A program made the translations under genes and the position numbers. The notes under the pieces were generated by a model. The model searched no databases. It was not told the DNA's origin and saw nothing but the letters and a program-made list of their open reading frames with translations. A stretch of DNA of 46,491 nt, taken from Archaeoglobi archaeon (GTDB lineage Archaea > Halobacteriota > Archaeoglobi > Archaeoglobales > Archaeoglobaceae). This document shows, piece by piece, positions 3,008 to 7,049 of this stretch; position 1 is the first letter of the stretch; every line of letters begins with the position of its first letter. The DNA lies in NCBI GenBank assembly GCA_029259415.1, contig JAPDIW010000031.1, forward strand, positions 1 through 46,491. Direction: 5' to 3'.

Positions 3008-4049
3008 TTAGAACCCAAAAAATTTGCCAAGCTCCGTCTGAGATTGGTCAAGTTTTGGTGGAAGTTTTAATTTTTGCACTTTGTAAAAAGAATCTTTTCT
3101 ACGCTCTACCCACTTACTTCCGTACACATCTGAGAAAATTTCTCTAGCATTCTCTAGTTTGTGTTTTGGAAAGAAGCTAATATTTTGCCTTCTGTGGTAA
3201 TTGAAAGAGCTGTTTGGGTTGGCAGGATTAAGCAACAAACGTTCAACAAGATCCCGTAAAATCCACGCAAGCTCTTTTTTAAATGGATCTTCTGAGGGGC
3301 AGAATATGCTTTGTGTTGTTGCTCCTAGCACAAGATCCACAAGTTGGAGAACTTGGCAATCTAACCGTTCCTCTTCGTTAGATGCTTTTTTGTGATCTGA
3401 ATCAAGAAAAATGATTTTAGTAGGAAAAACAACCTTTTTCTTTAACTCCGATTTTAATTCGTCTTCAAGCCTTCGAAGATTGTCTTTCGGGAAATACTTA
3501 TGAAATGCCAATCCTGTACTATTATCGTGTATGATGGTTTTTATTTCGATTTTATCCTTGAACCCAAAAGAGAAGAACTTTAATCCGTATTTTATGTTAC
3601 TTCTAAAAAATCGAGTGTAAACGTTTTCGTGCCATTTCGATTGCTCTACGTCTTCCGAATTTTGATATGTCGAGATTATTTAGATTGAGGTAGAGTATGT
3701 TAAATTTTATTGATTTGTTTTGTTTGTTTCTGTTAATAAAATAGTTCAACCATTTTCTTGAAATTTCTTGCTTCGATTTACTTGATTTCTTACGTAAATT
3801 CACAAAATGAAGTTCAGAGTTATTCAAATCGTGCCATGCTTCTTTGCAATTATTTTTGAACGGACAATCTTTGAAGTCCCAATACCAATCATCGCAAGCC
3901 TCATTTAAGCATCTTAGCCTAATCAGATCATTTACTATCTCAGAAAACTCTTCTTCGAAAAGAAAGAATGATGCAATGGCCATGTACTTAACTTCATTTT
4001 CCTTATCTGTGATTTCATGCTGCTCGTCAACGTAGATCCTTAATTTCAA
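3008..4049 (-). pseudogene. DUF3800-family protein, split by one frameshift
   Basis: Two minus-strand frames, 4049-3603 and about 3611-3008, make one protein. The N-terminus MKLRIYVDEQHE carries the acidic strand typical of DUF3800, a predicted RNase H-like fold. The C-terminal half has FLDSDHKKAS and LDCQVLQLVDLVLGATTQ, matching the family's closing aspartate and 'LQLADLLLGA' segment. The break lies in a six-base homopolymer at 3605-3610; removing one base joins the frames into about 346 residues. A ribosome site GGGGGTAA precedes the TTG start at 4049. Only 11 bases separate it from hsdM upstream, so the two probably form one operon. Function is unknown; DUF3800 genes are common on mobile elements. 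Confidence 0.7.
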
Positions 4050-4060
4050 TAAATTACCCC

Positions 4061-5587
4061 CTAGTTTACGTTGTAACTGAGCTCAACTAAATAAGAAGCA
4101 ATTTTTTCCTCAACCTTTGCAATCTCCCCTTCAATCTCCTTCAACTCTCTCCACTCCTTAGCAACATCAATCTCCTCAACCTCCTCCTGCGGAAATACGT
4201 AGAGCGTAACATTCAGATTGTAGTCATTCTCCTTGATCTCATCAAGAAAAACAACCCTGCAGAATCCATCCCCATCCTTAAACTCCCTGTAGGCATTCAC
4301 GATCTTCTCAATATGCTTCTCTCCCAAACGATTCAGCTTTCTAACTTCTGGATGCTTCTCGAATTCATTGCTCGCATTTATGAACAGAATCTTGCCTTTC
4401 CTCTCTTCGGGTCTCTGCTTGTTGAAAATTATGATTGCTCCTGGAGCTCCAGTATTGTAAAACAACTTCTCTGGCAGCAGTATCACACATTCAATCAGAT
4501 CATCCTCAATTACAGCCTTCCTTATCTGCTTCTCCTTCCCACCTCTGAAAAGGCATCCGTTATCTATTACAACCCCAACCTTTTTCTTTGCAGAAGCGAG
4601 CATATGCTGAATCCACGCCCAATCGGCTGATTGCTTTGGAGTGAAGCCATACCTAAACCTCTCATCGTAGAATTCCGCCTTCTTCAGCTCCTCCTCTCCA
4701 TAACCATCCTGATTCCATGGTGGATTAGCTATTACTATATCAAATTTCCTGAACGTCTCTCCTTCCTTAAATCTCGGATTCTTCAGCGTATCCCCAACTT
4801 CAAGCTTAATGTCTTTTATACCGTGAACTATTGCATTCATCTTCGCTATAGCGTAGGTTGTGGGGTTAACTTCTTGGCCGTAAAGAAACAGCTTCTTCGC
4901 CTCTTCTTCCCCATACTTCTGCTTCACATAATCGTACGCTCTAATGAGCATCCTCGCATAGCCAGCAGCAGGATCGTAAACGCTATCCATCGGCTTCGGA
5001 TCAACAATTTTAACAATCAGCTCCACAACCTCAGATGGAGTGAAAACCTCTCCTTCCTTCGCCTTTTGTGGAGCGAAGTAACCTATAATCCACTCGTAGG
5101 CATCGCCAAGAATGCTATCACTCGTTCTTCCCAAATTGAGCCCGCTGAAAAGCTCGAAAAGCTGGGCAAGAATGTCGAAGTTATCCCTATGCCTCGTAAA
5201 CTCAAGAAAATCGAGCCTGTCAACAACTCCCTGCAGTTCAGGATTTTTCTCGGCAAGGAGCTTTAAAGCTTCGGAAAGCTTAACGGGCAACTCGTTAATG
5301 TTCTTTCTCAGCTCTTCCCAAGTATATTTCTCAGGATACTCAAACCTGTGGAAGGATTTATCTTTGGCAAGCTTTTCAGCCTCTTCCTTGCTTAATCCCT
5401 TTTCGAGAAGAGTTTTCAAAGCTTCGTTGTACTCTCTCTTCCACTCATCGCTTAATCTTTTCAGGAAAAGGAGAACGAGAATGTATTTGTAATCAACTCT
5501 TGTTCTTATCAGATCAGCAGCCTGCTTGCAGGCTCTTATCAGCTCATCTCTTGTTGTCTCAATATCAATGTAATCAGCAAGAGTCAT
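4061..5587 (-). CDS. hsdM: Type I restriction-modification methyltransferase subunit (HsdM-like), solitary
   Basis: About 508 residues. The N-terminal helical domain (ETTRDELIRACKQAADLIRT then LVLLFLKRLSDEWKREY) and the adenine-methylase core are those of HsdM. Motif IV is intact in DIVIANPPWNQDGYGEEE, as expected for an N6-adenine methylase. Motif I is unusual: DPAAGYARML where HsdM proteins have a DPACGSGG-like SAM loop, so the glycine-rich turn is lost. The C-terminus (EWRELKEIEGEIAKVEEKIA) is a coiled coil like the one that contacts HsdS. No hsdS or hsdR is present. I start at ATG 5587 because an AT-rich TATA-like stretch lies about 27 bases upstream; TTG 5608 would add seven residues. 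Confidence 0.85.
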   Translation of the reverse strand: MTLADYIDIETTRDELIRACKQAADLIRTRVDYKYILVLLFLKRLSDEWKREYNEALKTLLEKGLSKEEAEKLAKDKSFHRFEYPEKYTWEELRKNINELPVKLSEALKLLAEKNPELQGVVDRLDFLEFTRHRDNFDILAQLFELFSGLNLGRTSDSILGDAYEWIIGYFAPQKAKEGEVFTPSEVVELIVKIVDPKPMDSVYDPAAGYARMLIRAYDYVKQKYGEEEAKKLFLYGQEVNPTTYAIAKMNAIVHGIKDIKLEVGDTLKNPRFKEGETFRKFDIVIANPPWNQDGYGEEELKKAEFYDERFRYGFTPKQSADWAWIQHMLASAKKKVGVVIDNGCLFRGGKEKQIRKAVIEDDLIECVILLPEKLFYNTGAPGAIIIFNKQRPEERKGKILFINASNEFEKHPEVRKLNRLGEKHIEKIVNAYREFKDGDGFCRVVFLDEIKENDYNLNVTLYVFPQEEVEEIDVAKEWRELKEIEGEIAKVEEKIASYLVELSYNVN

Positions 5588-5715
5588 TAAATGGTGTAAT
5601 TCAATCAATTATTTTTAGTTTTCTGAGAAGTTTTACTGGTTAGTTCCGATAATGCCAGATTTTGTTGATCAATCCCCCATTGTTGATTTGCTGCTGAACC
5701 GATTTAGATGGCAAA

Positions 5716-6020
5716 ATCAACCTCTATCAACAAATCAATCAACACTCATCAACTGCGAATCAATCTGAATCAACTTTCTATCACCCTCTCAATCAACCCC
5801 TATCAACACTCAATCAACAAGTCAATCAACAGGAGATCAACCCAAATCAACGTTAAATCAACTCTATTCAACAACTAAATCGCTACCAAATCAAAGCCAA
5901 TCAACCTTAAATCAACAGTGATCAACTCTATCAGCGATAAATCAACTTCTATCACCAAGGAATCACCCTATCAATCCCCTGGTGATTACCCTTGATCCCC
6001 TTTAATCACTCTTCATCCCC
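5716..6020 (+). repeat. Helically phased hexamer array (ATCAAC and variants)
   Basis: Exact ATCAAC begins at 5716, 5726, 5738, 5748, 5769, 5792, 5802, 5813, 5825, 5836, 5846, 5857, 5900, 5911, 5921 and 5941. Variants fill the missing phases: ATCAAT 5759, ATCACC 5780, 5951 and 5962, TTCAAC 5867, ATCGCT 5879, ATCAAA 5890, ATCAGC 5930, then ATCCCC 5995, ATCACT 6005 and ATCCCC 6015. From 5716 to 5962 there are 23 steps averaging about 10.7 bp, so the motifs lie on one face of the helix. Two copies in opposite orientation (GTTGAT, 5664 and 5682) flank the left end. Steps of 10, 11 and 12 rule out a coding repeat. It lies upstream of hsdM and abuts the RHH gene. Confidence 0.9.
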
Positions 6021-6249
6021 ATAACCCCCCATAAGAAATTGAAGATGGCTTTTTGCTTAGTTTTGAAAGTATGTGTTGCAAACTTTGTGTGTGTGCATAG
6101 CGGGAATCTCTAAGGTAATCTTCCAAAGCTTTAGTTAATAACTCTTCAAAATATTTATGGAGAGTTCAGTATTTGGCGAATACGTAATCCCTGAAAGCTT
6201 CTAATACTTCATCATCCACATGGATGTACATTTTCTCTTTTTGAGACAT
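6013..6249 (-). pseudogene. Ribbon-helix-helix DNA-binding protein interrupted by a TGA codon
   Basis: ATG at 6249 follows a strong ribosome site (GGAGG, six bases away). The frame reads MSQKEKMYIHVDDEVLEAF and RDYVFAKY, meets TGA at codon 28 (6166-6168), then continues in the same frame as TLHKYFEELLTKALEDYL up to a stop at 6013. The strand-turn-helix-helix order, and a stop exactly where RHH proteins have Gly (one G-to-T change from GGA), indicate a 78-residue RHH regulator of the plasmid copy-control/partition type with one nonsense mutation. Its 3' end touches the phased hexamer array, a plausible binding site for such a protein. It lacks a companion ATPase here. Confidence 0.65.
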
Positions 6250-6517
6250 TTAGAACCTCCCTCCTTAGTTCACCAAAAAATGCGTTTTGGATACCAACTT
6301 GCATGTTTTTAGGGAAATTTTTGCAAGTTGGTTACTTGGTAACCAAGTTTGGTAACTTAGTAACCGATTTGCAAAATATAGGTATAGATATAATAAAGAG
6401 TTTATGCATCTTGGCAACCAACTTGCAGTATTTGAACCCATGATAATTTCCCTGAGAGCTTCTTTTGATAGTGTTATACTCCTGTTCTCTCGTTGTGCAC
6501 ACACAAACTTTGCAACA
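6074..6517. repeat. Long-range inverted repeat, arms 6074-6098 and 6494-6517
   Basis: The left arm begins TGTTGCAAACTTTG and the reverse complement of the right arm begins TGTTGCAAAGTTTG; both go on into GTGTGTG and CA. Over about 24 bases there is one mismatch and one 2-base length difference. The left arm lies inside the 3' part of the RHH pseudogene; the right arm lies upstream of it. The arms enclose the RHH 5' half and the palindrome-rich region, so this may be an inverted partial duplication or the ends of a lost mobile unit. Confidence 0.6.
6293..6427. repeat. Cluster of short palindromes upstream of the RHH gene
   Basis: ACCAACTTGCA occurs at 6293-6303 and 6417-6427, and its reverse complement at 6322-6332. 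Between them GGTTAC or its complement GTAACC recurs: GGTTAC, TTG, GTAACC forms a clean palindrome at 6330-6344, with further half-sites at 6351 and 6360. AT-rich sequence follows (around 6370-6402). The cluster lies 45-180 bases upstream of the RHH start, so it may be an autoregulatory operator or replication iterons. No protein is identified for it. Confidence 0.65.
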
Positions 6518-6753
6518 TCAAAGTTCATCTTCTCTTCTTCTTGCATAACGCCCTTGGAATATCCTTACAGGGCAAGGGTTGATTGATAATCTTCAGAATA
6601 GATGGTTTGCAGCAATAGTTATCCCCTCTTTTCCATCCACATCTCATGTTTATTGAACTTCATCTCTACGTTTTTTCTTACTTTCCTGAATTCTTTTCCT
6701 TTCGGAACATTCAACGCTAAATTTTCCTATCGTTACATCCATCCCACGCCCTA

Positions 6754-6769
6754 TGTTCCACATGGAACA
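6754..6769. other. parS-like palindrome
   Basis: TGTTCCACATGGAACA is a 16-base palindrome with 7-base arms. From memory of the bacterial ParB site (TGTTCCACGTGAAACA in Bacillus subtilis) it matches 14 of 16 positions. A further half-site GGAACA follows at 6774 and another lies at 6704. No ParB gene is in the window, so a centromere role is inferred from sequence resemblance and from the neighbouring RHH gene and phased array. It could instead be the operator of an unrelated dimeric repressor. Confidence 0.4.
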
Positions 6770-6976
6770 ATCTGGAACATACTCTGAATCAACCTTTAAA
6801 AGGGAGATTTCGGCAAAAAACGACCGTAGAAGGGTTGATTTACGCATCAAAATTTTTAAGAAATAGCTGTATATTTCTGAAATAAGATTCCAAAAACCGA
6901 TTTTCTAAAGCTATAAACGAACCTATGGACTTCTTAAAACCTAAAAATCCATCAAAACTCACAATTTTAAGAATAG

Positions 6977-7049
6977 TGGGCTCGCCCGGATTCGAACCGG
7001 GGACCTTCGCCTCGTCAAGGCGACGTCATAACCCCTAGACCACGAGCCC
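6977..7049 (-). tRNA. tRNA-Val (anticodon GAC)
   Basis: On the minus strand the gene starts GGGCTCG at 7049, paired with CGAGCCC at 6984-6978 (7-bp acceptor stem). The discriminator is A at 6977, and CCA is not encoded. The anticodon arm is TCGCC, loop TTGACGA, GGCGA, giving anticodon GAC (valine). The T arm contains GGTTCGAATCC. All arms fold without an intron. The 3' end faces the accessory region, the usual orientation when an element integrates at a tRNA 3' end; I did not find a duplicated 3' segment in the window. Confidence 0.95.

Follow-up and report, generated by a model that had tools for sequence, protein, structure and literature searches.

The window, a 46,491-nucleotide stretch of an Archaeoglobaceae genome, contains an array of about 26 exact and variant copies of the six-base word ATCAAC, and this array is part of a mobile element, not a chromosomal feature. 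The host element is decayed and integrative, with an SSV-type split integrase, and is inserted at tRNA-Val(GAC); we assign the array to it, rather than to the chromosome, because of the att-bounded relatives and the SSV-type PF16795 integrase. It seems, with about as much reason to believe as to doubt, that the array is a cis-acting multi-copy site for a neighboring RHH-like protein, which would form on it a cooperative, wrapped nucleoprotein complex for maintenance of the element.

The coordinates of the array and its neighbors are collected in Table 1. On recount, the sequence-only reading had described the array accurately, with 16 exact copies and degenerate ones in phase with them, and all copies indeed point the same way apart from two GTTGAT at the left edge (5664 and 5682). 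The variants ATCAAT, ATCACC, ATCAGC, ATCCCC and TTCAAC occupy most of the empty slots in phase, out to 6015, and the steps are 10 to 12 bp except at the overlapping variants 5734/5738, 5867/5870 and 5970/5974; the stretch 5870-5890 is sparsely occupied. Tested against a null model in which the same number of non-overlapping sites was placed randomly over the same span, the best period was 10.80 bp (Rayleigh R=0.909, p=0.00025). The 18 copies of ATCAAC/GTTGAT per 300 bp compare with a maximum of 4 in 200 dinucleotide shuffles of the window and with a mean of 0.7 and a maximum of 4 in local 557-bp shuffles, so the periodic clustering claimed earlier stands against shuffled and random sequence. 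In a ranking of hexamers over the whole window, ATCAAC clusters most strongly of all. The segment 5951-6020 is what truncation has left of another, GC-richer block of ATCACC/ATCCCC, which is longer in G002:C33 and G002:C19 and there contains GGTGATCACC and CACCATGGTG palindromes.

Table 1. Features in and around the hexamer array of the window (G000:C9)
Feature	Coordinates	Strand	Basis
Intact hsdM (methyltransferase subunit of a type I RM system), cargo gene beside the array	4064..5587	-	
TATA-like CTAAAAATAAT, about 22-30 bp before hsdM ATG; array starts some 46 bp upstream of it	5608..5618	-	
Inverted GTTGAT pair	5664..5687	-	Same place kept in G002:C33
Main array, 16 exact ATCAAC, period 10.8 bp, one orientation	5716..5946	+	Count and phase test
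Variant block ATCACC, ATCAAT, ATCCCC, ATCACT, steps of about 10 bp	5951..6020	+	Comparison with G002:C33 and G002:C19
RHH-like gene with one in-frame TGA	6049..6249	-	Relatives adjoin array in G008, G020, G002:C33
Leader repeat of RHH-like gene, CAAGTTGGTAACTTAGTAAC x2, GGTAAC-rich	6324..6365	.	Repeat search
int(N), frameshifted N-terminal fragment of split SSV-type integrase, runs into tRNA gene	6729..7035	+	Intact counterpart L076:7211-7522
tRNA-Val(GAC), integration site; element on its 3' side (lower coordinates)	6976..7049	-	

Several simpler descriptions of the array were set aside. TRF returned weak periods of 10, 21 and 54 alone, which does not make a simple tandem repeat, and a minisatellite with its whole unit repeated, already doubted in the sequence-only reading, is contradicted by spacers that differ in length and sequence. 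An RNA element was rejected on the lack of an Rfam match at the array and on its orientation relative to hsdM, which flips between elements, and a coding repeat on array steps that are not multiples of three. Many chance matches in IMG/VR step by 6, 12 or 18 bp, unlike the window array, and the 12-bp-step arrays of G017 are perhaps a coding repeat.

The element in the window is in decay, as seen from the stop codon in the RHH-like gene, the frameshift in int(N) and the truncated second block; a present function here would therefore depend on a trans-acting protein. A second att copy of the element was looked for without success, and the int(N)/tRNA end alone is recognizable. Its left side is heavily decayed and contains transposase fragments, part of an ABC permease gene, a PIN ORF cut short and an unassigned ORF in two parts (431-1063, 1217-1741, 2452-2661, 3008-4049). 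No hsdS or hsdR ORF was recognized beside hsdM, which may be a solitary methyltransferase; the G002:C33 relative of the element carries hsdS. The TATA-like reading of 5608-5618 depends on the usual spacing of archaeal promoters. The leader repeat at 6324-6365 is a possible operator of the RHH-like gene, and the leader (6300-6400) has a single mismatch to that of G002:C33, though the RHH-like gene itself has diverged by 16%. Palindromic TTGGTAACC-type repeats are present in the same leader (window 6290-6430), and at L241 an RHH relative is preceded by a similar, GGTACC-rich leader.

Three phased exact ATCAAC copies occur at 12 places among 55 genomes of the family; most relatives lack them, and in the genome of the window they occur nowhere else. 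A whole-chromosome centromere or origin was rejected because there is one place in its own genome and none in most relatives, and the array sits inside integrated mobile elements. An unbiased scan, which admitted any clustered hexamer at loci with an RHH-like gene or a pattern match, returned ATCAAC as the top hexamer in 11 loci and AATCAA, offset by one base, in the twelfth (L058). Most of these 12 loci are of two kinds. The RM-type elements with the array are those of the window, G002:C33, G008, G020 and G043 (hsdM), that of G007:C31 (hsdR) and that of G002:C19; the last is a helicase-defense element whose helicase and NO VEIN-domain genes have HmaA and DrmD models as their best PADLOC matches. 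The other kind comprises virus-like proviruses of G006, G007:C14, G042 and G021, whose genes include one for a packaging-type ATPase and one that is head-protein-like. In G003, what remains of a degraded element at this tRNA-Val(GAC) keeps nine ATCAAC sites on both strands (L071:11420-11615) with no recognizable RHH-like gene, and this tRNA gene looks like a repeated insertion site.

The independent arrays of G000 (the window), G002:C19, G008, G020, G043 and G007:C31 have periods of 10.5 to 10.85 bp (p 0.00025-0.02). The phased array thus recurs in independent RM-type elements of other Archaeoglobaceae, and the earlier claim that both the hexamer and its helical face matter gains from the recurrence of both. 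Provirus sites are of mixed orientation, often as GTTGATCAAC, and without phase. Direct att repeats delimit the elements of G008 (50 bp; 8.6 kb), G020 (45 bp; 15.3 kb) and G043 (51 bp; 22.8 kb). PF16795, a domain of suicidal SSV-type integrases (PMC8371274), was identified in the L070 integrase; int(N) runs into tRNA genes at most array loci, and Int(C) was identified in G008 and G020. All array copies are located in chromosomal or MAG contigs. The Archaeoglobus provirus family of L059, L060, L061, L070 and L057 has genes for an SSV-type integrase, a packaging-type ATPase, a head-protein-like product, a kinase and zinc-ribbon proteins, and many of its genes have no database match.

By comparing the window with G002:C33, we found that none of the 223 bases from 5726 to 5948 differ, against divergences of 17% at third positions of hsdM, 16% in the RHH-like gene and 25% in int(N). 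Since the spacers are kept together with the hexamers, either very strong constraint or gene conversion is implied, which are inseparable in this pair; judged from the sequence, recent gene conversion would also fit the perfect identity. In the older pair G008 and G020, hexamers are 92-93% identical and spacers 86%, and units have been gained and lost. G002:C19 has flanks in common with the window and quite different spacers. In none of the compared arrays were spacers kept and the hexamer lost, a pattern that would have spoken against selection on the hexamer.

The adjacency of the array to an RHH gene, pointed out in the sequence-only reading, proved to be a repeated association with one RHH-like gene family. 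A gene of this family is present in 9 of the 12 loci with clustered ATCAAC, and lies adjacent or within 3 kb at 6 of the 12 phased-triple places in the 55 genomes. In the RM-type loci of the window, G008, G020 and G007:C31, the array lies no more than about 150 bp from the end of the RHH-like gene. Conversely, proteins at least 61% identical to the query occur at nine loci, seven of which have an ATCAAC cluster (9-20 sites per 400 bp); the gene is found without the array in G002:C28 and G001:C32. GATGAA was considered as a changed hexamer in G002:C28 and was unconvincing, being mostly coding. G002:C19 has the array and int(N) without a separate RHH-like gene, and G043 has other RHH-like ORFs near its array. 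Among named genome records, those that contain the protein belong to Archaeoglobus and Archaeoglobales MAGs; phage and plasmid collections gave no match for it in free plasmids or phages, and in IMG/VR it was seen on one contig, which lacks the array.

As for the protein itself, the RHH identity given earlier stands on the sequence pattern and a weak profile match; Pfam returned no RHH match, even at E 10. The profile alignment to RHH_1 relatives is collinear over 40 columns and weak (P 0.01). AlphaFold2 gave the two helices of the RHH-like N-terminus with the strand missing, at low to modest confidence, and profile and fold searches of the PDB found no RHH match. The pattern and the alignment suggest the RHH label weakly, and we write RHH-like throughout. 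The long form of the protein (AF2 pLDDT 71.6) consists of an RHH-like N-terminus, a winged-helix middle domain that the PDB searches relate to the MarR type (E ~0.01) and a helical C-terminus. RM elements mostly keep the N-terminal part alone; G007:C31 has the long form. The gene is intact in G008, where it encodes 71 aa, and the G007:C14 protein has 225 aa.

Relatives of the RHH-like gene are accompanied by other hexamers. In another genus (G068), a set of 11 ATCCGA/TCGGAT sites, whose phasing is not significant, begins 50 bp after a tandem pair of RHH-like genes, and a type III Mod gene comes next; in another family, a phased GGGCTA array (T 11.0, p 0.016) lies upstream of an RHH relative. 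Differing hexamers beside diverged RHH-like proteins would, in this small sample, fit a site with its putative binder. In another archaeal family, an RHH-like match has at a distance of about 3 kb a group of 12 CGTCAG/CTGACG copies in 280 bp (L248:11130-11411), which overlaps the end of a long ORF of 1101 aa.

We propose that the array and the RHH-like gene form a module within the core maintenance module of SSV-type elements and related proviruses in Archaeoglobaceae. Each ATCA(A/G)C would be the site of one RHH-like dimer; with a phase of 10.7 bp, 20 to 26 dimers would come to lie on one face of the helix and assemble cooperatively, and the result would be a single wrapped or filamentous nucleoprotein complex. 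Such a complex may mark the DNA of the element for segregation, replication or control of its copy state, in a centromere- or origin-like manner. We prefer maintenance because the site is common to proviruses and RM elements and sometimes lies away from defense promoters, and because the RHH-like gene with its array is the only candidate maintenance locus recognized in the complete 8.6-kb G008 element. The partition (centromere) role suggested by the sequence-only reading gained no support there: no NTPase partner (ParA, ParM or TubZ) was found in the main ORFs scanned of that element or in the sampled ORFs of G043 and the proviruses, so that the array is at most a putative partition site.

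The main rival to maintenance is regulation of the defense operon, which we regard as possible but rather unlikely. Here, the RHH-like protein would use the array as an operator to repress or time the adjacent defense operon (hsdM, HmaA-type helicase or type III Mod), and perhaps its own gene, like an RM control protein. In most RM elements, the array is flanked by the RHH-like gene and the first defense gene, which makes regulation a live alternative: it is directly upstream of hsdM in the window, G002:C33, G008, G020 and G043 and of the helicase in G002:C19, a TATA-like element stands between array and hsdM, the different array of G068 is upstream of type III Mod, and RHH centromere-binding proteins often act as repressors too (PMC5016525). 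However, the array of G007:C31 is placed where two genes converge, by the 3' end of hsdR; the proviruses, which lack RM genes, have their cluster about 2.3-2.8 kb from the RHH-like gene and overlapping coding DNA; the array faces hsdM in one orientation in G000 and in the opposite one in G008; and at least 20 sites are more than usual operators have. Maintenance and defense-operon regulation could also be combined, as with omega and ParG.

An accessory recombination site, at which the hexamers would be arm-type sites for the split integrase, whose N-terminal part looks like another RHH domain, is improbable. All phased arrays do lie within split-integrase elements, in several RM elements at 0.4-1.3 kb from int(N)/att, and int(N) occurs in G002:C19 with no separate RHH-like gene; against this, the cluster is about 6-7 kb from int(N) in G006, G042, G021 and G043, and the RHH-like family gave no convincing alignment with the int(N) domain. 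We find it very improbable that RM elements use the array as a decoy, hindering related viruses through titration of their RHH-like protein, as in satellite-like defense: hexamer, integrase type and RHH-like family are common to RM elements and proviruses, and the RHH-like copies of RM elements are short or broken with the array kept, but the proviruses have clusters of their own of similar size. Least credible is a protein-independent signal for DNA bending or nucleosome positioning through phased AA/TT steps, since a fixed hexamer recurs despite diverged spacers, which bending alone would not require, inverted GTTGAT is common in other loci and RHH relatives have GC-richer arrays (ATCCGA, GGGCTA), even though the period is close to the helical repeat and AATCAAC sets AA steps in phase.

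Returning to maintenance, we tentatively suggest, with more doubt than confidence, an undescribed class of phased hexamer sites, centromere- or origin-like, in which every site would pair a hexamer of its own (ATCAAC, ATCCGA, GGGCTA) with an RHH-like binder specific to it, and which would maintain archaeal SSV-type elements and proviruses without a dedicated partition NTPase, beside interchangeable defense systems. The replication, segregation and state control of archaeal integrative elements and viruses are a largely unknown field, and a compact, putative protein-plus-site module across several Archaeoglobaceae genera offers natural hexamer variants for their study. It also ties restriction and helicase defense systems to elements having a module in common with proviruses. 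Moreover, archaeal centromere-like sites are few, and a phased array with a candidate binder would be a good model for DNA wrapping at high temperature.

Among known systems, the omega site WATCACW resembles ATCAAC/ATCACC. Nucleation of RHH proteins on short tandem sites is established for omega, ParG and ParR, and omega of pSM19035, also a repressor, forms a DNA-wrapping nucleoprotein helix on the 7 to 10 tandem short sites of each parS (PMC5016525). The present module is like omega/parS (type Ib) in its small RHH-like protein, short tandem sites and tolerance of direct and inverted copies (PMC5016525), but differs in the 10- to 12-bp spacing of its sites, which are contiguous 7-bp heptads in parS; omega works with a ParA-type NTPase, of which we found none, and we saw no sequence homology between the two. 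In ParR/parC, the repeats are phased at 10-11 bp. That system (type II: pB171, R1, pSK41) likewise combines an RHH protein with tandem repeats in one or two blocks and a wrapped superhelix (PMC5016525), whereas its whole repeat unit is conserved and here the hexamer alone, its ParM actin was not found here, and the RHH-like gene is upstream of our array. TubR/tubC (type III) has short direct-repeat blocks, a small DNA-binding protein and a filament (PMC5016525); TubR, however, is a winged-helix protein, and TubZ was not found here. Iteron origins have multiple same-orientation repeats on one helical face, as the array has, although iterons are usually longer than its hexamer and no initiator protein was recognized in the complete G008 element. 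The portion of PMC4158269 on ArcVen-P3, a 9.5-kb Archaeoglobus veneficus provirus, mentions no phased array; as described there, this provirus has a split SSV-like integrase, 55-bp att repeats at a tRNA and two RHH proteins. With its split integrase, tRNA att site, RHH proteins and zinc-binding protein all resembling those of the present elements, ArcVen-P3 is, within the open-access literature, their closest described relative (PMC4158269).
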